Positions 7,416 to 31,961 of a stretch of DNA of 64,000 bases are shown here, piece after piece. The notes beneath the pieces were generated by a model that was given only the letters and a program-made list of their open reading frames with translations, was not told the DNA's origin and did no database searches. The translations under genes and the position numbers were made by a program. Source of the stretch: Burkholderia sp. BCC0506 (GTDB lineage: Bacteria > Pseudomonadota > Gammaproteobacteria > Burkholderiales > Burkholderiaceae); assembly GCF_902833145.1 (NCBI RefSeq), contig NZ_CADFEN010000005.1, forward strand, positions 372,001 to 436,000, given 5' to 3'. Numbering within the stretch: position 1 is the stretch's first letter; the number at the start of each line of letters is the position of its first letter.

Positions 7416-7579
7416 CACCGAGGAGGCCGCCACGCGGCAACCGGTCCCGGCGCGTGGCCCGCGCCGGGACGACGAAGCATGAGCACATCGGTTCCTGCGA
7501 GGATCAGACCGAAGAAGTACAGCGGTGCAAGGTTTGAACGCGAGGACGCTTGGCCGGCAACACCTCGTGCAGTCGATTT

Positions 7580-8750: not shown

Positions 8751-9467
8751 TCAGACGCACAGCAGCCCGAGGGAGATGGCCTTCGTCACCGCATGACGAC
8801 GGCCCTTGGCATTGAGCTTCCGAACGACATTGCCGATATGAAAATTCACGGTTCGCTCGGTGATGCCGAGAATCTCGCCGATCTCCCAGCTCGTCTTGCC
8901 GGCGGAACACCATTGCAGGCATTGCCGTTCGCGCGAACTCATGCCCGACATCCGCGTGGTGCCCTGCCCTTTGGTTTCCCGCGCGATCATGGTGACCTTT
9001 TCCTCGATGTACGCGCAAAGCAGACTGAGTTTCGCGGTCTGGCCGAGGTCGTGCGCCGGGATGCCTTCAGAGCCGTCGGAGGCAACGCTCAGCACGCCGA
9101 TGTCGCCGCGATGGCCGCGCACCGGCAAGCTCAGGCCGTGAACGAGACCGAAGCGACGCGCATCCGCTTCGAGGCACCGCTGCTCGCCGGAGCTGTACAT
9201 CGCGCGCTCCCATCGCAGCGGCAGCGAGGACGTGCGTGCGTGGGCGAGTATCGGGTCGATGTTCGCGTAGCGGCGCTCGGCGTAGACATCCTGCCAGGCC
9301 GGGCAGTTCGAGATGATGTGACTGAAGGCCGTCTCGCCGGCGGACCCGGACGAGACAACCGAATACATATAAGTTTGGTATCCGGCCTCGCGGCAGAAAC
9401 TTCCCACGTGGGCCCCGAGCTCCTCCATCGTCTGCGATTGAAGGATAGGCATGAATTCGTCTACCAA
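8751..9467 (-). CDS. LuxR-family quorum-sensing regulator (solo)
   Basis: Transcription factor of 238 residues with an N-terminal autoinducer-binding domain and a C-terminal HTH (MSSRERQCLQWCSAGKTSWEIGEILGITERTVNFHIGNVVRKL). The acyl-homoserine-lactone pocket positions known from TraR look preserved: W and Y in PAWQDVYAERRY, D-P in ANIDPI, W in PLRWE and the later G. The start is a TTG preceded by GGAG at good distance; the first ATG (9452) lacks a ribosome site. No luxI gene is in the window. It is the last gene of the leftward string and probably the activator acting on the lux-box-like dyads at 27.4 kb. Confidence 0.88.
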   Translation of the reverse strand: MVDEFMPILQSQTMEELGAHVGSFCREAGYQTYMYSVVSSGSAGETAFSHIISNCPAWQDVYAERRYANIDPILAHARTSSLPLRWERAMYSSGEQRCLEADARRFGLVHGLSLPVRGHRGDIGVLSVASDGSEGIPAHDLGQTAKLSLLCAYIEEKVTMIARETKGQGTTRMSGMSSRERQCLQWCSAGKTSWEIGEILGITERTVNFHIGNVVRKLNAKGRRHAVTKAISLGLLCV

Positions 9468-9633
9468 TTCAAACTCCGTATTGACTCTTCACTGATCTCG
9501 AACGTAAGCACGCATCAACACCATCGGAAACGCCGCACTCGCCCGCCGACAAGCGGCGCCCGCGCGGGTCGATCCGGTATTTCACGGCCGGTACTCGGGG
9601 CGAGTCCGGCTGGTTCCGACGGTACGGGAGCGG

Positions 9634-10143
9634 TTAGCTGCCCGACGCACTTTCGCGCAGCTCGCGCACCTGCTCGACACGTTCATGCACGGCGGCCGAC
9701 GCGACCGGCCCTGCCTTGAGCAAGACGCGATCCACGGTAATCGGCTGCAGGTCATTCCTGTCGACGACCACGGACTCCAACACCCGACCGCTCTCCCGAT
9801 CGATCTGCTGAACCGCGACACCGTCGTTGACGAGGTACTTGCTCCCCCAATCGAACAGCACGACCAGCAGCGGGAACAGGTCGATGCCCATCTGCGTCAG
9901 CACGTACTCGTAACGCGCGGGCCGCGTCATGTAGCGCCGGCGTTCCAGCAGGCCCTGATCGACCAGGCGTTTCAATCTGCGCGTCAGCGTATTGGTTGCA
10001 ATCCCGACACTGCGCTGGAATTCGTCGAAGCGTGTGCACCCCTGCAACGCATCCCGCAGGATCAGGAGCGTCCACGATTCGCCGATGCAGTCGAGTGCGC
10101 GCGCGGTCGGGCACTCCATCGATTTAAAGCTGGTCGTTCTCAT
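9634..10143 (-). CDS. HxlR-family winged-helix regulator
   Basis: A 169-residue DNA-binding protein with the DUF24/HxlR fold: CPTARALDCIGESWTLLILRDAL, then FDEFQRSVGIATNTLTRRLKRL and LTQMGIDLFPLLVVLFDWG. The ATG at 10143 is chosen because the family similarity starts just after it. Two Cys (residues 11 and 17) lie in the N-terminal helix where redox- or electrophile-sensing HxlR proteins carry their sensor Cys; this is suggestive only. A GTTACTT/AAGTAAC dyad lies directly upstream, consistent with autoregulation. It is separated from fabF by 106 bp containing a strong hairpin, so it may have its own promoter. Confidence 0.88.
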   Translation of the reverse strand: MRTTSFKSMECPTARALDCIGESWTLLILRDALQGCTRFDEFQRSVGIATNTLTRRLKRLVDQGLLERRRYMTRPARYEYVLTQMGIDLFPLLVVLFDWGSKYLVNDGVAVQQIDRESGRVLESVVVDRNDLQPITVDRVLLKAGPVASAAVHERVEQVRELRESASGS

Positions 10144-10161
10144 GGCGTGAAGGCTAACATC

Positions 10162-10184
10162 GTTACTTCTAATATGCAAGTAAC
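10162..10184 (-). promoter_or_regulatory. Operator-like dyad upstream of the HxlR gene
   Basis: GTTACTT (10162-10168) and AAGTAAC (10178-10184) form perfect 7-bp arms with a 9-bp spacer, ending 18 bp before the ATG at 10143. Size and position fit an autoregulatory HxlR site; that it binds this HxlR is inference. Confidence 0.5.
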
Positions 10185-10209
10185 TATCTGGACGGATGCC
10201 CTGTGGCGT

Positions 10210-10247
10210 CAAGGGCATGCCGGACGGGCGTGTCCGGCACGCCCTTG
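10210..10247 (-). terminator. Strong hairpin just after fabF
   Basis: Arms CAAGGGC-a-TGCCGGAC and GTCCGGCA-c-GCCCTTG pair over 15 bp with one mismatch and a 6-base loop. It starts 3 bases after the fabF stop in the direction of transcription. There is no U-run, so it may be a factor-dependent terminator or an RNA-stabilising stem. Confidence 0.5.
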
Positions 10248-10249
10248 GA

Positions 10250-11566
10250 TCAGGCGTCTGCCGGCGGAGGGCCGAATATCAGCGCGGCGTTCGTTCCGCC
10301 GAAGCCGAAGGAATTCGACAGCGTGTAACGCACCGGCCGCGACTTGCTGCGGTTCGGCACCAGATCGAGGCCGTCGCATTCGGGGGCCGGGCGATCGAGG
10401 TTGATCGTCGGCGGTGCGACCTGGTCGCGGAGCGCCAGCAGCGCGAACACCGCTTCGACGCTGCCGGCGGCGCCGAGCAGGTGCCCGGTCGACGCCTTCG
10501 TGGCGGACACCGACGCACCACCGAACAGATGCTCGCCAAACACGCGTTTCAGCGCGGCGATCTCGGCCAGATCGCCGGCGGGCGTCGACGTCGAATGCGC
10601 ATTGATGTAGTCGATGGCGTCCGGCTCGATGCGCGCACGCTTGAGGGCGGCAAGCATCGCGCGGGCCGCGCCGTCGCCATCGTCCGGCGGAGCGACGATG
10701 TGATAAGCGTCGCCCGACATGCCGTAACCGATCACTTCCGCGTAGATCCGGGCGCCGCGCGCCAGCGCATGCCCGTATTCCTCGAGGACGACCATGCCGC
10801 TGCCCTCACCCATCACGAAGCCGTCGCGGTCGGTATCCCACGGCCGCGACGCACGCTCCGGCGTGTCGTTGAAGCCCGTGGACAGCGCTTTCGCAGCGGC
10901 AAAACCGGCGATCCCGACCTCGCACACGGCGGCCTCCGCGCCCCCCGCGATCATCACGTCCGCGTCGTCGAGCGCGATCAGGCGCGCCGCATCGCCGATC
11001 GCATGGGCACCGGATGCGCATGCCGTGACCGTTGCGTGCGTCGGGCCGCGAAAGCCGTACTTGATCGAAATCTGGCCGGCGGCCAGGTTGATCAGGTTCG
11101 ACGGAATGAAGAACGGCGACAGCCGCTTGCCGGGCGCGCGCTCGATTTGTCGCGATCCAGCCTCGATGCCCGGCAGGCCGCCGATACCGGCACCGACCAT
11201 GACACCGGTGCGATTCTGCAGCGCCCGGTCGTCCGGATGCCATTGTGCGTCGTCGAGCGCTTCCGTGGCGGCCGCGATCGCATAGACGATGAACGGATCC
11301 ATTTTCTTGCCTTCCTTCGCCTCGACCCATTCGGTCGCATCGAAGCCGCCGTCGCGCGCATTGCCGGCGGGAATCAGCCCGGCGATCTTGCAAGGCAGAT
11401 TCGACGTGTCGAAGCGATCGATGGTCGTGATGCCGCTTCGACCGGCGAGCAGGTTCCGCCACGAGTGTTCGACACCGACGCCGAGCGGAGTCACGAGGCC
11501 GAGCCCCGTCACGACGACGCGCCGCAATCCCAGCGGATGAGGCAGTTGGGGAGTGATGGCATTCAT
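10250..11566 (-). CDS. FabF-type beta-ketoacyl-ACP synthase II inside the cluster
   Basis: Condensing enzyme of 438 residues that extends acyl-ACP with malonyl-ACP in type II fatty-acid synthesis. The triad is complete: Cys183 (TACASGAHA), His324 (NAHSTSTPAGD) and His362 (KASTGHLLGAAG), with Lys357. The usual Gly after the first active His (NAHGT) is Ser325 here. The start at 11566 follows GGAG. It lies between the exporter and the regulators, away from any acp, fabG or fabD gene, so it is a cluster-borne extra copy rather than the housekeeping fab operon gene. It could prime or extend the polyketide, or act as a resistant target copy. Confidence 0.92.
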   Translation of the reverse strand: MNAITPQLPHPLGLRRVVVTGLGLVTPLGVGVEHSWRNLLAGRSGITTIDRFDTSNLPCKIAGLIPAGNARDGGFDATEWVEAKEGKKMDPFIVYAIAAATEALDDAQWHPDDRALQNRTGVMVGAGIGGLPGIEAGSRQIERAPGKRLSPFFIPSNLINLAAGQISIKYGFRGPTHATVTACASGAHAIGDAARLIALDDADVMIAGGAEAAVCEVGIAGFAAAKALSTGFNDTPERASRPWDTDRDGFVMGEGSGMVVLEEYGHALARGARIYAEVIGYGMSGDAYHIVAPPDDGDGAARAMLAALKRARIEPDAIDYINAHSTSTPAGDLAEIAALKRVFGEHLFGGASVSATKASTGHLLGAAGSVEAVFALLALRDQVAPPTINLDRPAPECDGLDLVPNRSKSRPVRYTLSNSFGFGGTNAALIFGPPPADA

Positions 11567-11609
11567 TGAATTCTCCAGTTGGTTCGCGGTGAATAACCTT
11601 GGCGCGGGC

Positions 11610-12848
11610 TCATCGGCTAACCTCAAGTTCGACCGCCTGGTTGCAGAAGCGACCGCCCAGCACACACGCCGACACGAGCACCAGCGCGGACGTTGCGACC
11701 GGGAGGACGATCGAGTGCGGCTGCAACAACGAGGTCACGATCGGGGCCACGCCCCAGGCAAGCGCATTGATCGACGATACGACGCCCAGCACCTGCCCCT
11801 GGTCGTCGGCAGTCGCGCGGTTCGACGCGATGCTGAGCAGCGTGACATAGCAGTTGGATACGGCGAGCGCGAGCAGCGGCACGGCCGCCCAGAGGCTGAC
11901 GGGGGCGTCGACCATCATCACCAGTGCGATCAGGACCGGTTGCGCGATCAGGCTGCCCATGAGGTTCTGTCGCGGTGAAAACGCCTTCGCCAGTGCGGGA
12001 ATGATGAACAGCAGCGACACGGCGAAGCAGGCCGAGTAAAACGACAGCAACATCGCTTCCCAGAACGCGTCGAATCCATACCGCAACAGGGAAAAGGCCG
12101 ACATGTAGTTGAAGAAGATGTAGTAGCCGGTCAGGAACACCGCGAGGATGATGAGCGGCGTACGGAGTACCGGCGAGGCCGCATTCGCGACGATGCGCCG
12201 CCATGCGCCGGTGCGTCGCGCAGGCGTGGTGCCGTCGTGTGCGCGACGATCGGAGAAGAACGCGATCACGAACGCAAGCGTGAGCGCCGCCAGGGCAGCA
12301 CCGATGACGAACGGCAGCGCGACGCCGAACGCACCGCCGCCCGTGCCGGAAAACACCCCACCGATGACCGGCCCGATCGCGAATCCCACGCCGTTCGCCG
12401 CAGTGATCATGCTGAGGTTGCCGGCTTTCGTGTCGGGCGTGCTGATGTCGATGACGGCCGCCTGCGCAACCGGCAGGCTCGCGGCGGTCAGGCCGCAGAT
12501 CGCGCGGCCGACGAGCACCCCCCACAGACTGCCGGCGTACACGCCGGCAGCGGTGCCGAGCATGCCGAGCGCGTTGCCGCCCAGGCACAGCAGCAACACC
12601 CGTTTGCGGCCGTACCGATCGGACATGTCGCCGAGCAGCGGCGACGCGGCGAACATGGCCAGCGGATAGAGCGCCAGCACGATGCCGTAGATCTGATAGC
12701 GCGTAGCCTCGCTCACCGACGCTGCAAACAGGCCGGTTTCGTTGTTGAGCAGCATCGGCGTCAGCGCGGGAAACACGATGCCGATGCCGGCGGCATCGAC
12801 AAAGATGGTCAGGAACAGCGAGGCAATGGCAAGTTTGGATGTCTTCAT
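11610..12848 (-). CDS. MFS drug-efflux-type transporter
   Basis: A 412-residue inner-membrane antiporter with about 12 hydrophobic segments. It shows TetA-like motif A between TM2 and TM3 (GDMSDRYGRKRVLL), an Asp in TM1 (FVDAAGIGIVFPAL) and motif-C-like glycines in TM5 (GVGFAIGPVIGGVFSG). It starts 52 bp after the PKS-NRPS gene and 43 bp before fabF in the same direction, so it is probably the exporter or self-protection pump for the cluster product. Confidence 0.9.
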   Translation of the reverse strand: MKTSKLAIASLFLTIFVDAAGIGIVFPALTPMLLNNETGLFAASVSEATRYQIYGIVLALYPLAMFAASPLLGDMSDRYGRKRVLLLCLGGNALGMLGTAAGVYAGSLWGVLVGRAICGLTAASLPVAQAAVIDISTPDTKAGNLSMITAANGVGFAIGPVIGGVFSGTGGGAFGVALPFVIGAALAALTLAFVIAFFSDRRAHDGTTPARRTGAWRRIVANAASPVLRTPLIILAVFLTGYYIFFNYMSAFSLLRYGFDAFWEAMLLSFYSACFAVSLLFIIPALAKAFSPRQNLMGSLIAQPVLIALVMMVDAPVSLWAAVPLLALAVSNCYVTLLSIASNRATADDQGQVLGVVSSINALAWGVAPIVTSLLQPHSIVLPVATSALVLVSACVLGGRFCNQAVELEVSR

Positions 12849-12900
12849 GGTCAGCGTGCGGACGGACGGGCAACCGTCCGTCCGGGTTCAGGGAAAGGGA

Positions 12901-15900
12901 TCAAAGCGCCGCGAGCCGGTCCAGGCAAGCTGCGGTCGTGGCGAGCAGCCAGTTGCCCGAGTCGTCGGCGGCCGGCATTTCCAGCCGGCCGAGTTCGTCG
13001 AGATACGCGGCATGTTCGACGGGTCGCCCGCTACCCACGCCGTCGCCGAGCGCGCTGTACAGCGGCAACATCCTGAAGAACGGATCGGATTCGGGCGTTT
13101 CGTCGCGGGCGCGGGCCACCCATTCGGCGGCCGGTATCCCGCGCAGCGTCGACCCGTTGCGCAGCCGCGCCACGATCGCGCGAAAATCCAGATCGTCGAT
13201 ATGGACATTGCGCACGGCCGACATCATGGTGACCTTGCTGCGACGGACGATGTAGCGCGCCACGTGTTCCGTCGGCATGACCGGCACCGCAACGGGAAGA
13301 TCCGGGTAAGCGCCCATCGCCACGCACTTATTGCTGAACGCGACGAAATGGTTCTGCCGTTTCAGGTTCGGATCGCGGTCGTCGATCAGCAACGGCAGCC
13401 GATAGATCGACGTGGGATAGCCGTGCAGTACCGATTGCGCGAAGCAGGCTTCCGCCACGAACTTCGAGCGTTCGTAACCCGACGACAACGCGCGGATCGC
13501 CGCGTGGTCGAGCCATTGTTCCGGCAGCGATCCCAGCTCCGTGTACTGCGTCGAAATGTAGTGCACGTGGGCGACTTTCGCGGCCGACGCAAACGCCAGG
13601 ACGTGCCGGCTCGCGCCGACGTTGCCCTCGCGCATGAATGCGTAGTCGGCCGCGTGATTGACGTGCGCCGCGCAATGCATGACCTGCGTGACATGGGTCA
13701 GCAACTGCGCATGGCTGTCGTCGTCCATGCCGAACCGCGGCAAGGTTGCGTCGCCGCGGCAGATCCGGACACGCGCGACGGGCAGCGCGCCGCCGAACAT
13801 GGCACGGTAGCGGGCGTCGAGACGCGCGCGCGCGTCGGCGTCGTCGTTGCCGCGCACCAGCACGTAGACGTCCGCGTGCGTTTCCTCGAGCAGCATCCGC
13901 AGGAGCCAGGCGCCGAGGTGCCCGGTCGCGCCGGTCAGCAGATAGGCGTCCGTCGCCTTCGCCGCCGTCCCCGTGAATGCCGGCAGCGTCGCGGCGGCCG
14001 CCAGATCCGACGCATACGGCGCATCCTCCTGCCGGTTGACGGCGTCGTTCGTCGTCGTCGCCCCGTCGGGCCGGTGCGCACATGCGGCAAGGAAACCGTC
14101 GATCGTCGGGTTGGTCAGGAAGCGGCTGAAGTCGACCTTCAGCGCGAGCTCGCGTTCGGCGGCGAGGACCATGCGCGTCAACGACAGCGAATCGCCGCCG
14201 AGCTGGAAGAAGTTCTCGCGGGTCCCGATCGAGGCCAGGTCGAGCTGCGTCTTCCATAGCGTGCACAAGGCCGCCTGTTCCGGCGACAACGCCTCCGCCG
14301 CGTCGGCGGGACGCCGTGCATCGGCGTCCTGCTCGATCCGGGCCAGTACGCGCTCCGTGAGCGCCTTCCGGTCGACCTTGCCGCTGCTGTTCGACGGAAA
14401 TGCGTCGAACTGCATCAGGCGCCACGGCACCATGTAATCCGGCAACCGCGCTTTCGCACCGGCCAACACGGCAGGCTCGTCGAACCCGTCCGCAATGACG
14501 CAGCCGACGATCTGCCGTCCGACTGACGAGGCGGCGCCGACATCGACCACGAGTGCGCTCGCGTGACGGACGCCCGGGTGCGACATCAGCACGTGTTCGA
14601 TCTCGCCCAGCTCGATCAGCAGCCCGCGCAGCTTCACGCGGAAATCGTTGCGACCGATGTAGTCGAGTTCGCCGTCGCGCCGCCATTTGACGATGTCGCC
14701 GGTGCGGTACATGCGCGTCGCATCGTCCTGATACGGATTGGCGGAGAACGCGTCGGGCGCCTTGAGCGTGCCGATGTAGCCGCGCGCCACGCCGCTGCCG
14801 CCGAGGTACAACTCGCCGGGCACGCCAGGCGGCACCGGGCGGCCGCGTGCGTCCAGCACCCAGCAGTGCACGCCGTCGCATGCGAGGCCGATCGATGCGC
14901 CCGGCCCGTCGGGTACCCGGGTGCATGCATGATGCGTCGCATAGATCGTCACTTCCGTCGGCCCGTACAGGTTGTTGAGCGTCGTGGTCGTGCCCGATTC
15001 GAGCCACGCGCGCACCACGGGCTGCATCAAGGCCTCTCCGACCGAAATCACGTGGCGCAGCGCCGGGCATCGGGTGAGCGGCTCGAGCAGCAGGTTCAGC
15101 AGCGACGGCACGGTGCTCATCATGGTCACGTCGTGGCGTACGCACACGGCGGCGTGGCCGGCCGGCCCGTCCGTTTCGTCCATCAGCACGACGACCCCGC
15201 CCGTCATCAGCGGCAGGCAGAATTCGGGCACCGAGATATCGAACGTCAGAACCGTCCCTTGCAGGAACCGGTCGCTCGCCGAGAAGCCGAAATGGCGCTC
15301 CATCCAGCGCAGGCGCTGGGTCAGGCCCAGATGCTCGACCAGCACGCCCTTCGGATTGCCGGTGCTGCCGGAAGTGAACAGCACGTAAGCGAGCTTGCCG
15401 CCGCGATCGGCGTAGTCGCCGTTCGGTTCCAGTCGAGCGTGATGCTGCACGCGGCCGGCTTGCACGACGTCGCAGTCGATCGCGGTGTGGTCCGCGCGAA
15501 GCACGACGTCGCACAGCCCCAGCGCGTCGCGCTCGGCGAGCGCCTGCCGCACGTCGTCGGACAGCCGGTGCCGTTGCGTCAACACCATTGCGCAGCGGGC
15601 CGTGTCGATCATGTAGCCCGTGCGCGCCGCCGGATGCTTCAGGTCGAGTGCGACGTACGCGGCAGCGCATTTCCAGATCGCGAGGATCGCGATGATGGAT
15701 TCCGGGCACCCGAAACGCGGCATCAGGATGCCGACGGTCGTCTCGCTGCCGACGCCCTGGCGGTGCAGCGTATCGGCCACCGTATCGGCCAGCGCGTTCA
15801 ATTCACGATAGGTCAGCCGTCGTTCGCCCCATTCGATGGCGACCGCGTCCGGCGTCTCTTGCGCGCGCCGTGCGAACTGCTCGTGCACGCATGCCGTGTC

Positions 15901-18900
15901 GCCCGGATCGACATCCCGCATGTCGCGCGGAACCGGGCCGCGCCCGGATGCCAGCAACTGCAGTTGGTCGGCCGGCAGCATCGTGATCGAGCCCACTTCG
16001 CGTTCGGCATGACCGGGGTCGGACAACGCAACCAGCAGCGTCGCGTAATGCTCCGCAATCTGTTCGACCGTCGCGTGGTCGAACACGGCATCGGCGTACT
16101 TGAGGTCGATCGCCCAATCGTGCTGACGTTGCGTCACCCACGCACTCAGGTCGAATTGCGCTTCCTGCTGCGTGATGTCGAGCGGTGTCGCGTCGCACTG
16201 GGCACCGACGTCAACCACCATCTCGGAGGCATCGAAGTAGTTGAAATACGTCTGGAACAGCCCGGCCGAACGGCTGGCGGAACGCAGGCGTTCGTCGCGC
16301 ATCAACAGCGCGAGCGGGACGTCCTGGTAATCGACCAACTCGAATAGTGCACGCCGGACCCGGTCGACCGCCGCCGTGACGGTCTGGTTTTCGTCGACTT
16401 CGCTGACGAGCGGCAGCACGTTGACGAAATGGCCAACCGTGTTGCGCCAGCGTTGTGCCGAACGACCGTTGAACGCGACGCCCGTGATCACGCGATTCTG
16501 GTTCGAGTATCGCGCGAGCAGCAACAGCCATGTGGCAAGGTGCACGGCCGCGCGCCGTCCGCCCGGCATCGCGTTGAGCTGATCGGCCAGGCGCCGCGAC
16601 ACCGGTACGCGCACCGTGCCGCCGGTCTTCACGCCCTGCTCCGTGCGCACCCGATCCACCGGCAGGTCGACGCTGACGGGTACGCCGTCGCCGTCGATGA
16701 TCCGCTCGACGAAGAATGCGCGTGCGGCCGTCAGGGTCGTCGCATCGAGTGCCCGTTGCGTGGCCACGAAGTCGCGATAGGGTGCATCGGAGTCGACCAG
16801 CGGTGCCGTGGTGCCGCACATCGCCTGAAGAAGCTGGACGCCCACGATGAAAATGGTCGCGGCATCCATCACGAGGTGATTCGACGTCACGACCAGATAC
16901 CATTCGCGCGGCGACACGCGCAGCACGTTCACGCGCGTCGCGAAGTCGGTCGCGAGGTCGGGCGACGCGGCCAGCAACGCCTGGATCCGGGCGTCGACGT
17001 CGACACCCGATGCGGCGTCCTCGGTCGCGATCGCACAACGCGAGAGCGTTTCGTCAAGCGAATGAATGACGTATCCCGGCTCGCGCTCGACTTCGTCGAA
17101 CGTCGCGCGCAGCAATTCGTGTTCGCCAAGCAGCTCGCGCCATCGCGCCGCCAGCCGATCCAGGTCGAGCCCCTCGCCGGCCACGCGCCAGCCGACTGCG
17201 CAGTTGTAGGCGCGGCTGTCGCGGTGGCGGATCTGCTCGTACCAGATCGCAAACTGATTGTACGAGAGCGGTACGCGGGCCGGTGCACCGCCCTCCTTCA
17301 CGGGCGCGGCCTCGGCGTGAGCCGTCGCCGTGGCCTGGCTCATCGACTCCACCAGCCGGTCATGGATATCCGCGACAGTCGCGCTGTCGAAGAACAGGCT
17401 CGCGGGCAGGCTCAGCCCGAGTCGCCCCTGCAGTTCGCTGCGAATCCGGATCGTGCCGACCGAATCGAGCCCGAGTTCGTCCAGCGTCGACGTCCTGGCA
17501 ATCTGGTGCGACGCATGGCCCGTTTCCGCGGCGATCAGCCCGGTCAGCAGCGCGAACGCGCCGTCGGCTGTCGTCGTGGCCGACGCCGGCCCGATCGCGG
17601 CCGCGGCTGCGTCGCGTGTCGCGACCGTGTCGCCCGCTCGTGCGGGCGCTTCCGGGACGACGCGATAAATCGCCAGATGCGCGCCGCGCCCGATGCGCGC
17701 CATCGCGGCGGTCAATGCCGCGCAGGCGGCTTGCGGGGCGAGCGGTTGCAGCCGTCGCAGCGAGCGCGACGGTGCGCGCGCCCCCACCCGCTTCAACATG
17801 CCGGTGTCCGCCCACGGCCCCCAGTCGACCACGATGGCCGGCAGGCCGAGCGAAGCACCGTGCGCGGCCAGCCGTTGCAGCCCCGCGTTCGCGATCGCAT
17901 ATGAAATCTGGCCCGGCGACTCGACCAACGACGCCAGCGACGAGAAATACACGATGAACCCGATCGAAGGCTGCCCGCACGCGTAGTCGTGGAGCACCGA
18001 CGCCCCGTGCAACTTGGCGCCGAGAACGGTGTCGAGCTGCGCCGCGTCGGTGTCCAGGATGTTCCGGTCGGCGGTCGCGCCGGCCAGGTGAAAAATGCCG
18101 TCCAGCGCGCCCGCATGGGCAGTCAGCCACGCACCGTCGACATCGGCGGCGGAGAGATCCGCGACGAGCAGTTGAATCGTCGCGCCGGACCGCTCGCGCA
18201 GGCCCGCAACCCATCGGTGATCCTCGTCGTCCGGCGTCAACGCGCGTCGGCGCATCAGGACGAGGTTCCGGCATCCGCAATCGTCGACAAGATGTTCGAC
18301 GAGATGTTTGCCCGCCCCGCCGAACGCGCCGGTCACGAGGTAGCGACCGTCGCTGCGCGGCTGCAGCGCGTTGTCGCCGTCGACTTCCGGCAGGCCGGCC
18401 ACGGTTTCGCGGCGCGCCAGCCCAGCGTCGTCGATACGCCATAGCGGTGTCGCGATGCGCCGCGACGTGATGCCCGGCTTGACGTCCCGTACCGCCAGGA
18501 TCGCGTCGACGACGCGATCGCCCGCGACGGCGACCTCGAGCTGTGCCGCGTCCAGCGCGGGCAGTTCGGCCTGCAAGTGAACCGCGAGCGCCTGCATCGT
18601 CGCCGCGCCCAGAACGTCCGGCGAGGCATGACCCGTCTCCGTCACGAGGCAGACCTGTAGCGGCTGTCCCGGCTGCCGGTCCGACACCGTCTCGATGCTG
18701 CGCCGCACGTCTCGAACGAAAGCGGCGACCGCGCCGTAGGACGCTGCACCGGACAGCCACGCGTGAGGCGCCCAGACGACGATCGTGCGTACTCGCGCGC
18801 CGTCCGCCTGCGGTGCGTCGATCAGCTTGCCGTCGCGATGCGACTCTCCCGGCAACGCGAGCAAGCGACTTGCCGCGCCGCGCGCGGCAAGGCCCTCGTG

Positions 18901-22629: not shown

Positions 22630-24214
22630 TGCTCGACTCCGTCGTTGCGTTGTGTTTTTCCGTTCCGTTCTGCGTGTCGATCTGTTGCAGCATGCATTGC
22701 ACCGAACGACAGGCGCCTTCGAAAAAGCCCTGCAGGTCCGAATAGGCCTCGCCGCAGATATGCACGCGCCGGTTGGCCGGATCGGCGCCGATGCCGAAGG
22801 CGGCCAGTTGCCGAATCACGTCCGCCGAGCGGTAGCCGGGACGCCAGAAATGCACGCCGGCGCCGAACGGCGCCATGCTCCAGTCGCGGATGCCCCATTC
22901 GAGGATGCGCGGCGTGTCGTCGCGCGAGAACGTCTGCTGCAGCGTCCGGACGAGCGCCGCCTTCAGGCGCTCGCCCCGGTTGCGATACGGGGCCGACTGC
23001 CAGCCGCGGCGCCCTTCTTCCGTGTCGATCAGGTTGGCCCAGTACTGATGCCACGGTTCATCGCTGTAGAACATCGCCATGCCGTACCGTTCAGGCTGGC
23101 TGGGGTGGACCTCGAAATGAGCGGCCCGGATCGTCGCGCCTTCGCCGCTGCCTGGCGGCGTGTCGGCGTTCCACCACGGATCCTCGACCACGCAGCATGC
23201 CCACGTGATCGGGAACGGGACGACGGCGTCGAGGCTGGCGGTCACGGCCGGCGGCAGGCAGCGGGCAAGCGCCCGGAGCGGGCGCTGCGGCAGCGCGAGC
23301 ACGACGCGCCCGCACCGGATGACGACGCGGCGCCGCTCCGCGGTCGACACGTCTTCGATCGTCGCGGCGATGGCGCCGTCGGGCTGCTCCGACAAGTCGA
23401 CGAGCGCATGATCCACGACCACGTCGACGCCCAGTGCGCGCACGGCGCGCCCTGCGTAGTCGATCAGCGTCTGCATGCCGCCGACCGGCAGGTAGGACGG
23501 ACGCTCGAGCAGGCGCAGGTCGAGCAGCGTCGCGATCCATTCCGCGGCATTCGGATTCGCGTTCTTGAAGTTGTAGAACGCCCCCTTCTCGCGCGTGAAC
23601 TCGACCGCTTCATGGCTCAGTACGTTCGACAGCACGTTCCAGATACCCTGCTGGTAAAGCGGCATGCCCCCGAACCGGGCGTCCGTCCGGAATCTCGCCA
23701 GTGCCTCGGCCCGGCCGGGCCGGTCGAAGCGGTCGCCGTCGAGGTCCCACTGGTCCGCGACGATCACGCGCACCGCATGCATCAGCAGCGCCCAGGGCGG
23801 ATCGTGCGCGCGCGGATCCGCCAGCAGCGCGCGCTCGTCCTCGGTCAGCTTCGCCGCACACGGACGGATCGACGAACCTGCCTCGTGCGACGAAATGGGT
23901 TGCACGGGTACGCCCAGCGCCTGCACGAATGCGTCGACGAGCGGCTGAAGATCAGGCTCGATTCGCACGGCGCCGTATTCCGTACGGAATGCGCCGGCGA
24001 GCATCTCGTCGGTCTGCACCCGGCCGCCGATGCGAGACAGCATCTCGACCAGGCGAACCCGCAGTCCGGGGTGACGCTTCTTCAGTTCATAGGCGGCATA
24101 CAGGCCAGCCAGACCGCCACCGGCGATCAGTACATCGGTATCCAAATGAATTCTCCGTCTGGAAGACCCGGTGCCGCGCGCGCCATTGCGCACGGCGACC
24201 GGTGTCGTTCTCAT
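22616..24214 (-). CDS. Flavin amine oxidase, VioA-like L-amino-acid oxidase
   Basis: FAD enzyme of 532 residues of the monoamine-oxidase fold. The dinucleotide motif is VLIAGGGLAGLYAAYELKKR with the following GGRVQTD, and the C-terminal FAD-contact segment is CGEAYSDLQGFFEGA. Several blocks resemble the tryptophan oxidase VioA from the violacein pathway: DPWWN, FYSDEPWHQYW, the GAGVHFW block and the EAYSD...EG ending. Expected chemistry is oxidation of an amino-acid alpha-amine to an imine/keto acid, on the free or PCP-bound substrate. The ATG overlaps the stop of the A-PCP gene (ATGA), so the two are translationally coupled. Substrate is not proven; tryptophan is suggested by VioA likeness plus the dioxygenase across the divergent promoter. 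Confidence 0.85.
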   Translation of the reverse strand: MRTTPVAVRNGARGTGSSRRRIHLDTDVLIAGGGLAGLYAAYELKKRHPGLRVRLVEMLSRIGGRVQTDEMLAGAFRTEYGAVRIEPDLQPLVDAFVQALGVPVQPISSHEAGSSIRPCAAKLTEDERALLADPRAHDPPWALLMHAVRVIVADQWDLDGDRFDRPGRAEALARFRTDARFGGMPLYQQGIWNVLSNVLSHEAVEFTREKGAFYNFKNANPNAAEWIATLLDLRLLERPSYLPVGGMQTLIDYAGRAVRALGVDVVVDHALVDLSEQPDGAIAATIEDVSTAERRRVVIRCGRVVLALPQRPLRALARCLPPAVTASLDAVVPFPITWACCVVEDPWWNADTPPGSGEGATIRAAHFEVHPSQPERYGMAMFYSDEPWHQYWANLIDTEEGRRGWQSAPYRNRGERLKAALVRTLQQTFSRDDTPRILEWGIRDWSMAPFGAGVHFWRPGYRSADVIRQLAAFGIGADPANRRVHICGEAYSDLQGFFEGACRSVQCMLQQIDTQNGTEKHNATTESSNEAA

Positions 24215-26040
24215 GCCGTTGCAAGCCGCGAGTGGATTTCCCGCGAAAGAAGGTCGATCGTGTAGTACTCGAACATGTCTTCGGCACGGAGGGACACCCC
24301 GAAGGTGGCGCTGAGCCGCAGCGACAGCGCCTGTACGCCCAGCGAATCGAGCCCGATATCCGCGAACGGTTCGTCCCGGTCGATCAACGCATCACTGCCC
24401 AGGCCGATCAACTGGGCCAGCGCGCGGCCGATTTCGGACTCGACGTCGTTGGCCGGCACGTCATCCGCCCGGGTGCGCTCGCTGGCCTGGCGGCAAAGGT
24501 CGACGAGCGAGCGCCGGTCTGCCTTGCCGCTCGTCGCCTGGCGCGGGATCTCCGCGACCGCGACCCAATCCTTCGGCAGCCAGGCGGCCGGCAGCGCGTG
24601 GGCAGCGGTTTCGCTCAGCGTTCGCATCCACGCGGTGTCATGGCCGTCGGCCAGAACCACAATGGCGGTCAGCCGGTCGCCGACGACGAGCGCGGTGGCA
24701 TCGCGAACCATCGGCGAGCGCAGCACCGCGGATTCGATCTCCGCCAGTTCGACGCGCTGGCCGTTGATCTTCACCTGGTCGTCCACGCGCCCCACGCAGT
24801 GAACGAGGCCGTCTGCATCGACCCGGCAGATGTCGCCCGTCAGGTAGATGCGCGAGTACACCGGCAGGTCACCGGTCTCGAACAGCGGATTCGCGATGAA
24901 GCGCCGCGCCGTTTCCGCGGCGTCGTTCACGTAGCCGTTGGCCAGTGCCGCGCCGCTGATGCAGAGCTCGCCCTCCTCCCCCGGCGTCGTGGGCACGATC
25001 GCGTCGGTCACGCCGTCCGCCGCGGTTCGACGCAGGTAGAAGCGCGTGTGCGAAACCGGTGCACCGATCGGCAGCGAATCCCGCGGCGCGTCGTCAAACG
25101 GCCATGCGCTCGCCATGATCGTCGCCTCCGTCGGCCCGTACACGTTGTGGACGACCGTGTTGGGCAACAGGCGCCGGGCACGTTCCGCGAGCGACGGACG
25201 GAAGACCTCGCCGCCGACGCAGATCGCCTTCAGGCTCGTGCATTGTTCGAAGCCCGGCGTTTGCGTGATGAGGTTGAACATCGTCGGCACGGTCGTGATG
25301 TGCGTGGCCGCATGCCGCCGGATCGCGGACACGATCTCGACGCTGTCGATACGGTGCGTGCCGCCGAGAAAGCACACCGTCGCGCCGATTGTCAGCGGCG
25401 CGAGCAGCTCGTGCATGGATGGGTCGAAACACGGGTTGATGCTTTGCAGCCAGCGATCGTCCTCGCGGAAACCGAGGTAGTCGATGATCCAGCTGAAGTG
25501 ATTCCACGCCGCGGCATGCGAGACGGCAACGCCCTTCGGCAGCCCGGTGGAACCGGACGTGAAGATGATGTAGAGCGGATCGTGCAGCTCGGCATCCAGC
25601 CCGAGATTGTCGGACGACAACTGGCTTGCCCGATTCAACGCCGCATAGACGTCGCTTTGCGGCACGTCGCCGAGCTGCGTCATCGCGCGACCTTCCAGGG
25701 CCGTCAGCACGAACGCGATGCGCGCGCGCTGGACCATGTGACGCATCCGGTCCTCGGGACACGCTGCGTCGACCGGCACGTAGACGGCCCCGCACTTCAG
25801 GATGGCCAGCAACGCGACGAGCCTGACAGGATCGTGATCCGTGCACACGCCGACGGCCTCGCCGGCGCGGATGCCGACTTCATCGCGCAGGAGACGCGCC
25901 AGCCGGTTCGCGCGCGCGTTCATCTCACCGTAGGTCACGCTTTCGCGATCCGAGATGGCCGCGATTCGATCGGGTGCCGCTGCGGCGCGCTGCTCGAAGG
26001 CCAGATGCGGGATGTGGGGTGAATAGATGGGTTCAGTCAT
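24211..26040 (-). CDS. Stand-alone NRPS adenylation-PCP didomain protein
   Basis: 609 residues: adenylation domain (about 15-510) with TSGSTGLPKG at 161-170, VYGPTE at 300-305, YLTGD, GRVDDQVKINGQRVELAEIE and Lys506, then one carrier domain with phosphopantetheine Ser566 (GLDSLG). No condensation domain. Residues lining the binding pocket, aligned by eye to PheA, read D-P-H-T-I-V-V-I-M-K, which I cannot match to a known specificity. The architecture equals NovH-type proteins that load an amino acid onto a PCP for oxidation before use. Start ATG overlaps the thioesterase stop by 8 bp; its end overlaps the oxidase start. A longer in-frame start exists upstream but lies inside the thioesterase gene. 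Confidence 0.9.
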   Translation of the reverse strand: MTEPIYSPHIPHLAFEQRAAAAPDRIAAISDRESVTYGEMNARANRLARLLRDEVGIRAGEAVGVCTDHDPVRLVALLAILKCGAVYVPVDAACPEDRMRHMVQRARIAFVLTALEGRAMTQLGDVPQSDVYAALNRASQLSSDNLGLDAELHDPLYIIFTSGSTGLPKGVAVSHAAAWNHFSWIIDYLGFREDDRWLQSINPCFDPSMHELLAPLTIGATVCFLGGTHRIDSVEIVSAIRRHAATHITTVPTMFNLITQTPGFEQCTSLKAICVGGEVFRPSLAERARRLLPNTVVHNVYGPTEATIMASAWPFDDAPRDSLPIGAPVSHTRFYLRRTAADGVTDAIVPTTPGEEGELCISGAALANGYVNDAAETARRFIANPLFETGDLPVYSRIYLTGDICRVDADGLVHCVGRVDDQVKINGQRVELAEIESAVLRSPMVRDATALVVGDRLTAIVVLADGHDTAWMRTLSETAAHALPAAWLPKDWVAVAEIPRQATSGKADRRSLVDLCRQASERTRADDVPANDVESEIGRALAQLIGLGSDALIDRDEPFADIGLDSLGVQALSLRLSATFGVSLRAEDMFEYYTIDLLSREIHSRLATA

Positions 26041-27271
26041 CGCAGGATTCAGGACGAAGGGATTGAACGATCGAAGCGACACAGGCGACGTGCGGCTCCG
26101 AGAGCATTGAAAAGTGATTACCGGGTACTTCGATGCCCTGCACGCGATGCTGCAGCGCGTGCGCATGCCAGTCGGGCAGCAGCGGCTCGCGCGCGTGCAG
26201 GCATGCCACGCGCGCGGCCGTGGCCGCGGCGGTGCGGTGGGACTTCAGCAATGCCAGGCACGTGCGGCGCATGTCGAGCACCTCGCGCAGGCGGGCGGGG
26301 GGCATGCGCCGACGCAGGCAGGCGTCGATTTCGCTGTCGCTGGGCGATTCGGCGAGGACGCGATCGGCTTCCGCCGGCGGAAACATTGCCTTGAGCAGCG
26401 TGACGCGCTCCGTGCGGTCGTCGCTCACACGCTCGCGTGCCGCAAGGGCCAGCGACGGATCGAGACTGACCACGACGCCGAGGCGCTTGCCGCGCTGCTC
26501 CAGCAGGGCGGCCATTTCGCGCGCCACCACCGCACCGAACGAGTGACCGCCGATCCAGTGGAAAGGCCGGTCGTCGATCTCGCACAGTGCATCGACATAG
26601 CGGTGCGCGAGGTCCTTCAGGTCGGCGGCCTGCGCGAGTTGCGCCGGCACCCCGCGAAACGCCCTGACGACGAACGGCAGCCGCGCGGCGAGCGGCGCGA
26701 ACGGCACGACGCTGCCGTCGGCGCCGTGAATCAGGGTCAGCACGGCATCGGTTGCGTCGCGCGCCGGGCGTCCGGCGAGCACGCGTGTGATGTCGACGAT
26801 CGGATCGACGGCCAGCTGATCGGCGAGCTCGGATGCGGTGTGACGCCACCTGTCGCCGATGGCGGCCGCGAGCGCCGGCGCGCCGGCAACGCTCACCTGC
26901 CATGCGTTCGCATGCGTCGGGTCGTGCGGCCGAAGCACGATGGGGCCGGGCGCGCCGCCGCGGACCTCGAGCTCCCATTGATCGATGGCGGCGCCGGCGT
27001 CCGCGCCCCCCGCCGCGTCGAGACGATCGGCGACCCGTCGGACCAGCGTGCGGAAAGCCCCGGCGATCTCGGGCGATCCGATCGTGATCGCCGGGGGCGC
27101 AGCGCCGACGGCCGAGCGTCTGCGGATCGTGATGGTCGCGTCGTTGCCGCCATCGATGCCCTGCACCCCGGCGCGGCACAACGCCGCGAGAAAACCGTAA
27201 TGGAGCGGCGCTCCGAGAACCTGGGCCATGCTGGCCCGCAGGCGCGGGGCGATATCGTCCGTCCGCATCAT
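26033..27271 (-). CDS. Thioesterase with unrecognised N-terminal region
   Basis: 412 residues. The C-terminal two-thirds (from about 175) is an alpha/beta-hydrolase thioesterase of the NRPS/PKS type: TLIHGADGSVVPFAPLAARL, nucleophile Ser244 in GGHSFG, Asp271 (SLDPS) and His386 (GNHFSML), a complete triad. The first about 175 residues match no domain I know and hold no transmembrane segment; they could be a degenerate carrier or docking region. As the PKS-NRPS ends in a reductase, this enzyme probably releases the substrate from the A-PCP protein or edits stalled chains. It is the first gene of the leftward string; two ATGs (27271, 27268) are equally possible and neither has a clear ribosome site. 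Confidence 0.85.
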   Translation of the reverse strand: MMRTDDIAPRLRASMAQVLGAPLHYGFLAALCRAGVQGIDGGNDATITIRRRSAVGAAPPAITIGSPEIAGAFRTLVRRVADRLDAAGGADAGAAIDQWELEVRGGAPGPIVLRPHDPTHANAWQVSVAGAPALAAAIGDRWRHTASELADQLAVDPIVDITRVLAGRPARDATDAVLTLIHGADGSVVPFAPLAARLPFVVRAFRGVPAQLAQAADLKDLAHRYVDALCEIDDRPFHWIGGHSFGAVVAREMAALLEQRGKRLGVVVSLDPSLALAARERVSDDRTERVTLLKAMFPPAEADRVLAESPSDSEIDACLRRRMPPARLREVLDMRRTCLALLKSHRTAAATAARVACLHAREPLLPDWHAHALQHRVQGIEVPGNHFSMLSEPHVACVASIVQSLRPESCDD

Positions 27272-27356
27272 TCTGTATTTACCCGATTTGCAAACCGCAC
27301 GTTTCTTTGAACATGCTAAAAATATATTAAATATCAAATCACTGTTGCGGAATGTG

Positions 27357-27362
27357 ATTAGA
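27357..27362 (-). promoter_or_regulatory. -10 element of the leftward cluster promoter
   Basis: Read leftward, TCTAAT matches TATAAT at 5 of 6 positions. The predicted start near 27350 is 44.5 bp from the centre of the lux-box-like dyad at 27385-27404, the spacing typical of LuxR class II activation with no good -35. Confidence 0.45.
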
Positions 27363-27384
27363 CAATCAAAATCCGTTGTCGTGA

Positions 27385-27404
27385 ACCTGCAATATCTGAC
27401 AGAT
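27385..27404. promoter_or_regulatory. lux-box-like site 1
   Basis: ACCTGCAATATCTGACAGAT carries the CT-N12-AG core (27387-27402) of lux/las/cep boxes with partly symmetric arms. It serves the leftward promoter by position. A 15-bp palindrome ATATCTG-A-CAGATAT (27392-27406) overlaps it. Confidence 0.5.
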
Positions 27405-27444
27405 ATCCCTGACACAAACATCAGGTGTCATCGACGTGAATAAA

Positions 27445-27462
27445 GCTGTCTGTTCTGACAGC
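27445..27462. promoter_or_regulatory. lux-box-like site 2
   Basis: GCTGTCTGTTCTGACAGC has perfect 6-bp arms and the CT-N12-AG core (27446-27461). It abuts the -35 position of the rightward promoter and is centred 59 bp from site 1. Confidence 0.6.
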
Positions 27463-27485
27463 GATCATTTCGAGAAAATAGTCGA

Positions 27486-27491
27486 TACAAT
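27486..27491 (+). promoter_or_regulatory. -10 element of the rightward cluster promoter
   Basis: TACAAT matches TATAAT at 5 of 6 positions. The 17-bp upstream hexamer (27463-27468) does not resemble TTGACA, and the lux-box-like site 2 ends one base before it, as in activator-dependent promoters. Predicted start is near 27498, about 64 bases before the ATG at 27562. Confidence 0.5.
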
Positions 27492-27561
27492 CCTCCCCCG
27501 CTCCACCCTGATACGTCTTGAAAATCAATTAAATCAACATCGGACCATCGAGAGGTTTTAA

Positions 27562-29157
27562 ATGGAAGTGAAAGCACCTGAGAGCGAATCGGCCCGGTCG
27601 ATTCGGCAAGAAATCGCGTCGTTCCTGCGCAGCAAAAGCAATCTCCCCGTCACCGCGGAACACGCGACGGAGAAGCTTCTCGCCAAATCGCTGGACCTCG
27701 ACGAAATCTCGCGCCGTCGCGAGGCGTTCTCGACGCATGCGGAGATCGACAGCACCGCGGTGCTTGCGAACTACGAACTTCTGCATGGCGTGAAATACCT
27801 GGATCGACTCGTAAACTGCGAAAAGCAGCAAATCGATGCGAAATGTATTGTCGCCATCTTCAGAGGGACGGAAATCTGCCTGAATAACATTTCCGTCCTC
27901 GCCGATCGGATCATCGACGACATCGGCCATTCCCGCTTCGGCGACGTGTCGGTCAAGATTTCGTGGATGAATCATTTCAACGATTCCCTGTACCGCTTTT
28001 CGCAGTTGCTGGTGCAAACGGATCTCGGTCGCAATAGCGGGGACTTTCTGTCGATCGAGGATTCGTCCACCTATCAGGCTGCCGCGAAAAAAACCGAAGC
28101 GATGTACGAAGCGCTGAAATCGGCGCCGGAAGCGGTCGGCGACGTATCGGAGAAGGACCTCGACGATCCGCAGCGCTTCACGTTCTTTCACACCTTCGTC
28201 AATACCAATTACGAAACGATCTGGCTGGCCGTGCTGCGCCACGTTCGCGTGCCGGGCGTGTTTCGCCTCGAGGGCGAGAGCGCCGAGCAGTTCTATCAGC
28301 GGGTCGTGCAGAACGACGAGGTGCGCGATGCGGTCACCTGCGTCGACCTCAAGGATCCGACGTACCTGATGCAGTTCCGTGCGTACCACCAGATCAGCGA
28401 AGTCCTCGTGGGCCTCGTCAACGACGTGATCGCGGATTCGATTCTGGCGCTCGTGAACGAAGCGAACGAGTCGTTCGAGCATGAGGCGACGTCGCTGGCG
28501 CTGTGCAACAAGTTGCTGCAGATCGTCACCGACAACATCAAGCCGATCGTGCGTACGCTGAGTCCGAAGGCTTACTTCGCGATCCGGCCGGCGCTTGGCA
28601 TCACGAGCGGTTCTCACTCGCACAATCTTCGCAAGGGGCTGTTCCTGACGATCTACCCGCTGCTGGTACGTTCGCTCCGCCTGCGGCTGATGGAATTCAA
28701 CGACACTGCCGCGCGCGACGACGACGCCGTGCTCGAGCAGGCGCAACAGGTGCTGCGCCTGAACACGCAACCGGCGCTCGCCGCGATGATTCGTCAGACG
28801 GTCTACGTGTACCAGTACGTGCGGACATGGCGCGACGAGCACATTCAGTTCGTCAAGACGCAGATCGGCGTGAGTCCTGAAGACAACACGCCGACGGCCT
28901 CGATTTCGGGCGCCGAAAACGCGGCCCAGACCGCGCACAACTTCCGCAGCTCGCACATGAACGATCCGATCGGCCCGCTTTACGAGGCTACGCTCGGCAA
29001 ACGACCGCCCGCCCCGTTCGCGATCGTCCATCCGGGACGTTTTGACGAGCACATGGCGTTCTTCACGGCGAATGCGGTCAAGGCGATGTATGCCGACGTG
29101 CAGCAACGCGCGCAGCGCAAGCGCGACCGCGGGGTCCGCACGGGAGGCGCGTCGTGA
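27562..29157 (+). CDS. Tryptophan/indoleamine 2,3-dioxygenase-superfamily heme protein
   Basis: 531 residues. Three motifs occur in the order and form of tryptophan 2,3-dioxygenase: distal YHQISEVL (His276), TSGSHSHNLR (348-357, cf. SSGFQSxxFR), and the proximal heme-ligand block WRDEHIQFVKTQIG (His427, cf. WRxxHxxxVxxxIG). The usual TGGS after the proximal block is replaced by TASISG. The protein is much longer than TDO (about 280-400), with about 200 extra N-terminal residues. Members of this superfamily open indole rings (TDO, IDO) or do other heme chemistry (PrnB, MarE, SfmD), so ring cleavage is likely but not certain. AGAGG precedes the ATG. The SDR gene overlaps its stop codon. Confidence 0.75.
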   Translation: MEVKAPESESARSIRQEIASFLRSKSNLPVTAEHATEKLLAKSLDLDEISRRREAFSTHAEIDSTAVLANYELLHGVKYLDRLVNCEKQQIDAKCIVAIFRGTEICLNNISVLADRIIDDIGHSRFGDVSVKISWMNHFNDSLYRFSQLLVQTDLGRNSGDFLSIEDSSTYQAAAKKTEAMYEALKSAPEAVGDVSEKDLDDPQRFTFFHTFVNTNYETIWLAVLRHVRVPGVFRLEGESAEQFYQRVVQNDEVRDAVTCVDLKDPTYLMQFRAYHQISEVLVGLVNDVIADSILALVNEANESFEHEATSLALCNKLLQIVTDNIKPIVRTLSPKAYFAIRPALGITSGSHSHNLRKGLFLTIYPLLVRSLRLRLMEFNDTAARDDDAVLEQAQQVLRLNTQPALAAMIRQTVYVYQYVRTWRDEHIQFVKTQIGVSPEDNTPTASISGAENAAQTAHNFRSSHMNDPIGPLYEATLGKRPPAPFAIVHPGRFDEHMAFFTANAVKAMYADVQQRAQRKRDRGVRTGGAS

Positions 29158-29879
29158 CGACTTTGCCGCTGGTGATGGTGACGGGCGCGAGTTCCGGCAT
29201 TGGCGCGGCGGTCGCGCGTGCGTTTGCCGCGCTCGGGCATCCGCTGCTGCTGGTGTCGCGGCGGTTGGCCGAGCTGCAGGCGCTCGATTTGCCCAACGCC
29301 GCATGCGTCGCGGCGGACGTGACCGACGAGCGTGCGGTGCGGGCCGCGGTGCAGGCCGCGCAGGCGCAGTTCGGCAGCGTCGACTGCCTCGTGAACAGCG
29401 CTGGAACGATGCTGCTCGGCGAGCCGCTCGAACAATCGGCCGACGAACTGCGGACCATGCTGGACGTGAACGTCGTCGGGACGATGAACGCGATTCAGAG
29501 CGTACTGCCCGGCATGATCGAGCAGCGGCGAGGCAGCATTTTCAACGTCAGCTCGATCACCGGCCGCCAAGCCTTTCCATTTCATTCGGCGTATTGCGCA
29601 TCGAAATTCGCGGTGCACGGCATGTCGGCCGCGCTGGGCGCCGATCTCGGCCAGCACAATATCCGCGTGTCGACCATCGCGCCGGGCGTGGTTGACACGC
29701 CCCTGCTCGACGCCACCACGTCGGAGTCCGCCAAGACGATGTTTCGCGAGTGGATGAGTTCGCTGGCTTCGGTTCTGCATCCCGACGACGTCGCACGCGC
29801 GGTGTGCTTCGCCTATGCGCAACCGCAGCACGTCTGCATGAGGGAGATCTTCCTGACGTCCACCGCGCAAACATCCTGA
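29154..29879 (+). CDS. Short-chain dehydrogenase/reductase
   Basis: 241-residue classical SDR with NAD(P)-binding TGASSGIG near the N-terminus, the NSAG motif, catalytic Ser in NVSSITG and Tyr-x-x-x-Lys in YCASK. Start is GTG at 29154, supported by GGAGG seven bases upstream and by overlap with the dioxygenase stop (GTGA), which couples the two. It probably reduces or oxidises a carbonyl/alcohol on the cluster product or on the dioxygenase product. Confidence 0.9.
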   Translation: MTTLPLVMVTGASSGIGAAVARAFAALGHPLLLVSRRLAELQALDLPNAACVAADVTDERAVRAAVQAAQAQFGSVDCLVNSAGTMLLGEPLEQSADELRTMLDVNVVGTMNAIQSVLPGMIEQRRGSIFNVSSITGRQAFPFHSAYCASKFAVHGMSAALGADLGQHNIRVSTIAPGVVDTPLLDATTSESAKTMFREWMSSLASVLHPDDVARAVCFAYAQPQHVCMREIFLTSTAQTS

Positions 29880-31139: not shown

Positions 31140-31205
31140 ACGTCGAACCGGGTGGCCAGCGCCGCCCTCCCCCAATTACCGATTCCTGTTCTATCGAGGT
31201 GAAAC

Positions 31206-31532: not shown

Positions 31533-31598
31533 GCGTCACGCCCGGTACGTGAACCCTGCTTCCCGTCCATTCCTGATTCCATTTTGTCGAGGTGAATG

Positions 31599-31925: not shown

Positions 31926-31961
31926 GCACGGGACGGCGAATTCGGTCGCTGAAGTCCGGCA

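Follow-up and report, generated by a model that had tools for sequence, protein, structure and literature searches.

A conserved hybrid PKS-NRPS gene cluster of Burkholderia and Oxalobacteraceae that encodes a long tryptophan 2,3-dioxygenase-like protein

Introduction

The closest described parallel to a part of the locus considered here is the quinoxaline-2-carboxylic acid cassette of echinomycin (quinomycin) biosynthesis. According to PMC3578932, the 611-aa protein Qui18 loads L-Trp, the P450 Qui15 hydroxylates the loaded Trp, the thioesterase (TE) Qui14 releases it, Qui17, a tryptophan 2,3-dioxygenase (TDO), opens the ring, and the FAD-dependent oxidoreductase Qui12 acts later. Here we describe a predicted natural-product gene cluster at positions 8751 to 29879 of a 64,000-nucleotide stretch of the Burkholderia sp. 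BCC0506 genome (the whole stretch is referred to below as the window), in which a hybrid polyketide synthase-nonribosomal peptide synthetase (PKS-NRPS) is accompanied by a similar set: a stand-alone NRPS protein composed of an adenylation domain and a peptidyl carrier protein (A-PCP), a TE, a TDO-family enzyme and an FAD oxidoreductase. In contrast to the echinomycin cassette, no P450, MbtH family protein or dedicated formamidase is found among the ten cluster open reading frames (ORFs) scanned, the TDO-like protein has 531 aa where that source gives 275 aa for Qui17, and the genes accompany a PKS-NRPS line with a reductase in a Gram-negative host.

The synthase shares with those of the polycyclic tetramate macrolactams (PTMs) the order ketosynthase, acyltransferase, dehydratase, ketoreductase, acyl carrier protein, condensation, adenylation and thiolation (KS-AT-DH-KR-ACP-C-A-T), but it ends in a reductase (R) domain where the PTM synthases have a TE. 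The TDO-like protein aligns with ordinary TDOs (PF03301/TIGR03036) over its C-terminal half, including the F/H, R and haem-ligand His positions, but has about 250 extra N-terminal residues. Thiotetronic acid and platensimycin clusters carry an extra FabB/FabF that provides target-copy self-resistance, and the present cluster likewise has an extra FabF, here of a lineage of its own.

The cluster very likely makes a small molecule from amino acids and a polyketide. As the best explanation, to which we assign a probability of about 0.42, we propose a quorum-regulated natural-product cluster whose A-PCP primes an aminoacyl-polyketide, which is then coupled to a further amino acid and set free by reduction. 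Support at the level of sequence comes from the gene set, the intact catalytic motifs, conservation in two bacterial families, lux-box-like sites and a cluster-specific FabF lineage. All of the parts listed in an initial annotation of the window (PKS-NRPS, A-PCP, TE, oxidase, TDO-like protein, SDR oxidoreductase, exporter, FabF and two regulators) are present with strong family matches, although the names given to the TDO-like protein and the oxidase call for caution.

Results

Conservation of the gene set

The window lies on contig C5 of a 7.29-Mb genome (G000). With the TDO-like protein as the probe, matches were found in three of 65 genomes of the genus (its own, G044 and G005, B. arboris LMG 24066), in four of 349 genomes of the family (these three and G526), and in its own genome only among 398 genomes drawn from the phylum. 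A contig scan, which used just two short peptide patterns and can therefore miss relatives, found three loci, in B. arboris LMG 24066, Rugamonas sp. CCM 8940 and Mycetohabitans endofungorum HKI456, and the one matching record in a plasmid collection is also from Mycetohabitans. A profile search of the Oxalobacteraceae (E <= 0.001) matched 12 of 392 genomes, of which three matches are strong (G750, which is the Rugamonas genome, G897 and G972), two are distant long proteins (G1125 and G889), and seven are short matches on ordinary-TDO ORFs.

All ten genes are matched in G044 (97-100% identity) and in B. arboris (87-96%), and five genomes share one order of the eight genes from FabF to SDR: these two, the host genome, Rugamonas sp. 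CCM 8940 and G972. The Rugamonas proteins (SDR, TDO-like, TE, A-PCP, oxidase, PKS-NRPS, exporter and FabF) are 36-73% identical to those of the window, and because the order recurs at these identities in a second bacterial family, the gene set is more than a chance neighbourhood. Rugamonas additionally has a LuxR gene on the opposite strand (33% identity), as does G972 (34%). A split into separate PKS and NRPS genes was considered for Rugamonas, where the contig carries a run of N at the ACP/C junction that interrupts the synthase and is compatible with one gene or two; the G972 synthase is a continuous ORF (48.8% identity). In G897 six cluster genes are followed by the contig end inside the synthase. 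We also note that a phosphopantetheinyl transferase-like gene adjoins the SDR gene in G972 (L055 11739-12563; EntD model 80.6 bits, cut-off 169).

The PKS-NRPS synthase and the A-PCP

The synthase joins one PKS module to one C-A-T; the module has KR and DH and lacks an enoylreductase (ER) and a loading domain. Its PKS half matches ketoacyl-synt (1.3e-72), Acyl_transf_1 (9.5e-38), PS-DH (8.1e-19) and KR (7.5e-42), its NRPS half matches Condensation (7.1e-51), AMP-binding (6.7e-74) and NAD_binding_4 (6.8e-43), and there are two PP-binding stretches. Conserved in the window, B. arboris and G972 copies are the KS Cys/His/His, AT GHSVGE and GAFH (the latter presumably malonyl-type), DH HxxxGxxxxP and DxxxQ/H, the KR Tyr, the ACP and T Ser, and the R YxxxK; in the C-domain motif HHxxxDG the first His is replaced by Asn in all three copies and the second is retained. 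The initial description of a hybrid synthase with a terminal R domain is thus borne out by the NAD_binding_4 reductase and its YxxxK, and this C-terminal domain fits a predicted reductive release to an aldehyde or alcohol. Matches to the PKS half in the plasmid collection number 695 records, all below 60% identity and at most 37.3% among the 12 matches listed.

Read by motif, at positions that we take to line the substrate pockets of both A domains, the synthase has the code D-I-P-S-I-V-L-I-Y and the A-PCP has D-P-H-T-C-G-V-I-M, each identical in the window and Rugamonas; the A-PCP code maps to no assigned substrate. Among solved chains the best match for both A domains is the second A domain of LgrA, which we take to be glycine-activating, and the core of the synthase A domain alone best matches 8xjz_C.

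The TDO-like protein and the amino-acid oxidase

The TDO-like protein had been placed in the TDO superfamily, and this assignment stands at the level of profile comparison, while direct matching is weak: the window protein has no Pfam match at E <= 10 and scores 29.6 bits with TIGR03036 (cut-off 390.7), and the score with PF03301 is at most 19.2 bits (cut-off 34.9) among three proteins scanned. When a profile of seven long homologues (four after the program's own filter) was compared by hhalign with one of seven ordinary TDOs, the two aligned with 94.8% probability over query columns 271-440 (E 5.4e-8, for a single comparison). Residues F272, H276, R357 and H427, which are kept in all seven long homologues printed, align with four TDO columns that we take to be F51, H55, R117 and the haem ligand H240 of the Xanthomonas enzyme. 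By homology the protein is therefore a member of the TDO superfamily, while the curated cut-off does not class it as a TDO. The roughly 250 N-terminal residues are also conserved among homologues. A tandem duplication, with the N half resembling the C half, looked plausible by eye and was rejected when profile comparison gave it a probability of 0.9%.

An ordinary tryptophan 2,3-dioxygenase that scores over the PF03301 cut-off is also encoded in the genome (G000:C10:278068-278871), so the cluster protein is not its sole TDO-type enzyme. The Mycetohabitans homologue (L052 20001-21557, NZ_CP062179.1) lies on a megaplasmid beside a very large NRPS/PKS gene and is annotated as 'hypothetical protein'. 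There is in addition a second group of long TDO-like proteins that are somewhat shorter (about 490 aa), represented by L057 (G1125:C45) and L058 (G889:C63); L057 is accompanied by genes for an HpaB-type hydroxylase, for AMP-binding and BtrH/DUF4872 proteins and for a protein bearing a UvrA DNA-binding domain, and its locus is possibly another natural-product cluster.

The oxidase had been described as VioA-like, a term that proves too narrow. Its closest solved chains by phmmer are 8zf8 (4.7e-57) and 8zb2, both named only 'FAD-binding protein', followed by an ancestral L-amino acid oxidase (8jhe, 4e-28), and with the VioA model NF053546 (cut-off 600) the window oxidase scores 43.6 bits, from one stretch at residues 27-103, and the G972 copy 82.2 bits. 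Residue R84, in a GAVRIE stretch, is kept in all three copies aligned. We take it to correspond to the arginine with which L-amino acid oxidases bind the substrate carboxylate, and its presence favours a free over a carrier-bound amino acid as the substrate. With its PF01593 match and this arginine, the flavoenzyme is of the L-amino-acid-oxidase type. No match to it was found in the plasmid collection at 1e-20.

The cluster FabF

The cluster FabF is 95% identical to its B. arboris counterpart, 72% to that of Rugamonas and 70.5% to that of G972, and 52-56% identical to five FabF copies that we label 'housekeeping-type' from similarity. In a tree of 12 rows the four cluster copies are split from the five housekeeping-type copies (99/98 support, and 100% of 200 bootstrap trees). 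Among these five, own_C3b forms a long branch at an unresolved fork; three more divergent rows are ungrouped, and the tree program gives a warning about long branches that meet. The tree indicates that FabF travels with the cluster, and a lineage of its own suggests a role in the pathway or in self-resistance. The catalytic Cys and both His are intact in the four cluster copies aligned, and this predicted active site is compatible with both roles. We note as well that the residue after the first catalytic His is Ser or Ala in the four cluster copies; the housekeeping-type copies have Gly there (NAHGTST), except for own_C3b, which has Ala.

Regulation

A hint of quorum control had been noted, and it is strengthened by the finding of an N-acylhomoserine lactone (AHL)-type LuxR together with three lux-box-like dyads in the divergent promoter between the TE and TDO-like genes. 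One AHL synthase in the genome scores over its cut-off, and it lies on contig C10 and not on that of the cluster; the cluster LuxR would thus be a LuxR solo at this locus. The divergent region is 290 bp long with 40% GC and contains three CTG-N10-CAG sequences (at 27387, 27409 and 27446), the last of which reads CTGTC-N6-GACAG; the whole 64-kb window has ten. None of 5000 dinucleotide shuffles of the region reached three, a count that serves as a guide because the pattern was picked after viewing the region and running a looser scan. That looser scan, allowing three mismatches, gave 278 sites where 147 were expected, too many to be of use, and was replaced by the exact count. All three dyads are kept in each of the three Burkholderia copies (window, G044 and B. 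arboris), and in each of the Rugamonas, G897 and G972 promoters a single CTG-N10-CAG lies close to the start of the TDO-like gene, possibly by chance. An AHL-type LuxR with lux-box-like sites at the cluster promoter makes up a predicted AHL LuxR circuit.

Cluster layout and neighbouring genes

The ten genes, from LuxR to SDR, lie on the minus strand except for those of the TDO-like protein and the SDR (Table 1). Neighbouring ORFs overlap by 14 bases (oxidase and PKS-NRPS), four bases (A-PCP and oxidase) and four bases (TDO-like and SDR), and two divergent operons fit this arrangement. Coordinates of FabF, the A-PCP and the TE are those of the longest ORFs; likelier starts are an ATG near 11566 for FabF, an internal ATG at 26040 for the A-PCP, and a position near 27271 for the TE, about 175 N-terminal residues of which are without a Pfam match.

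Table 1. Genes and promoter sites of the cluster, in window coordinates, with family matches (SDR, short-chain dehydrogenase/reductase; MFS, major facilitator superfamily).
Feature	Position	Strand	Evidence
LuxR-type regulator (autoinducer-binding + GerE)	8751..9467	-	autoinducer-binding domain PF03472 7.2e-31
HxlR-type regulator	9634..10218	-	4.9e-22
FabF-type beta-ketoacyl-ACP synthase II	10250..11665	-	1e-61; TIGR03150 605.8 bits, cut-off 493.75
MFS exporter, Tet-like branch	11610..12848	-	1.8e-39; under the cut-off of all Tet models listed
Hybrid PKS-NRPS P0001, 3242 aa, KS-AT-DH-KR-ACP-C-A-T-R	12901..22629	-	family matches
FAD-dependent L-amino-acid-oxidase-type enzyme	22616..24214	-	PF01593 FAD amine oxidoreductase 4.6e-18
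Stand-alone A-PCP	24211..26166	-	AMP-binding 1.1e-80, PP-binding 2.2e-9
PF00975 thioesterase	26033..27421	-	4.6e-15
Three CTG-N10-CAG lux-box-like dyads, divergent TE/TDO promoter	27387..27461	.	exact-pattern count
Long TDO-like protein (531 aa) with TDO homology in its C-terminal half	27562..29157	+	
SDR oxidoreductase	29154..29879	+	9.3e-53

The region between a resistance-nodulation-division (RND) gene and LuxR, at window positions 4602-8365, holds a gene for a TonB-dependent receptor and an ORF for an IS110-type transposase. Neither has a match in the stretch fetched from G044, where the RND gene comes after LuxR. On the other side, two overlapping minus-strand ORFs at 30895-31973 have no Pfam match and may not be genes; for each of them G044 and B. 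arboris show two or three adjacent matching stretches.

Discussion

In the pathway that we favour, the A-PCP would load an L-amino acid and then prime the PKS-NRPS, an assignment prompted by its having no condensation domain and by the continuation of the operon into a KS-first synthase without a loading module. The synthase would extend this starter by malonyl units, and the action of KR and DH would make the chain a beta-hydroxy or alpha,beta-unsaturated aminoacyl-polyketide. The C domain would couple it to another amino acid, and release by the R domain would yield an aldehyde or alcohol that may then cyclise. As in the initial annotation, we infer that the product may be an N-acyl amino aldehyde. 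The oxidase and the TDO-like enzyme would make or modify a building block by acting on a free amino acid that probably derives from tryptophan, the SDR may tune the oxidation state, the TE may edit or release, and the MFS protein would export. FabF would provide either immunity, if the product hits fatty acid synthesis, or an elongating activity. That it is a biosynthetic elongating enzyme and not an immunity copy falls somewhat short of an even chance within any of the models discussed here: all four cluster copies aligned retain the catalytic Cys and the two His, but an immunity FabF would keep its active site too, so that this does not decide the matter, and against an elongating role the synthase carries a KS of its own and fabF sits between the exporter and the regulators.

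A similar set of A-PCP, TE and TDO serves another purpose in echinomycin (PMC3578932). In a building-block cassette of the echinomycin/thiocoraline kind (Qui18, Qui15, Qui14, Qui17 and Qui12 in echinomycin) the A-PCP would load Trp, tailoring and the TE would free a modified amino acid, the TDO-like enzyme would open the indole, and the FAD oxidase would give a kynurenine- or quinoline-type unit for the A domain of a PKS-NRPS that itself starts from malonyl or acetyl. The A-PCP, TE, TDO-like and oxidase genes do adjoin here and recur together, but the missing P450, MbtH and formamidase genes count against such a cassette, as does an A-PCP code that is not established as a Trp code, and we regard it as a serious though tentative alternative. 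It is a close rival of priming by the A-PCP, and the two can in part be combined. Iterative use of the single module in the PTM or fungal manner, in which it would be reused on malonyl-CoA to build a polyene or reduced chain carrying one amino acid while the A-PCP, oxidase and TDO-like protein only decorate, would account for a lone PKS module with KR and DH, without ER or loading domain, fused to one C-A-T, and the domain order of PTM synthases is the same up to the last domain. Since a reductase with YxxxK stands where the TE would be, we consider this unlikely.

Several observations weigh against A-PCP priming and the quorum-regulated pathway built around it, in addition to the different use of a similar set in echinomycin. 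The codes of the two A domains have no confident match to any named code, and the LgrA match says little about substrate because both A domains share it. The TDO-like protein falls far below the TIGR03036 cut-off, its alignment with true TDOs ends at column 440, short of the region of Thr254, which together with the GTGG loop we take to be the TDO substrate region, and the AlphaFold models of this protein and the oxidase are both poor (mean pLDDT 50.2 and 43.4). In Mycetohabitans the TDO-like gene has another NRPS as its neighbour, and the 41.6 kb covered there contain no match to the oxidase, TE or SDR, so that the protein need not belong to the product of this cluster. Finally, the LuxR proteins of Rugamonas and G972 are 33-34% identical and encoded on the opposite strand, and HxlR has no match in the stretches from these two genomes.

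No published description of the cluster was found in the open-licence literature searched, in keeping with the earlier statement that it matches no named product. By term search, a Burkholderia cluster survey (PMC10826400) gave no oxidase or TDO passage, and in a Janthinobacterium/Duganella study (PMC5080296) the sole dioxygenase passage found concerns an ordinary kynA. The cluster table for B. arboris DHR18 (PMC11433949) includes an 'NRPS-like, NRPS, T1PKS' region for which it gives no similar known cluster; this region could be the present cluster or a different one. A search for endopyrrole gave no tie to the TDO-like gene, and the open-licence literature searched holds no paper for 8ZB2. 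The parts are of known kinds, but we know of no earlier case of their combination or of the long TDO-like subfamily. In its boldest form our proposal would be a new class of antibiotic, aminoacyl-primed and reductively released, with a ring derived from indole and opened by a TDO of a new long subfamily, a target in fatty acid synthesis, tolerance through FabF and quorum control; we think it quite unlikely that all of this holds.

A cluster that is kept in two bacterial families, and for which no published description was found in the searches made, is a good target for the discovery of a new metabolite, and its FabF points to a target that can be tested. The TDO-like protein, with no Pfam match and the name 'hypothetical protein' in one annotated record, may mark a wider and so far unrecognised group of enzymes, which may be indole-modifying enzymes of natural-product clusters.

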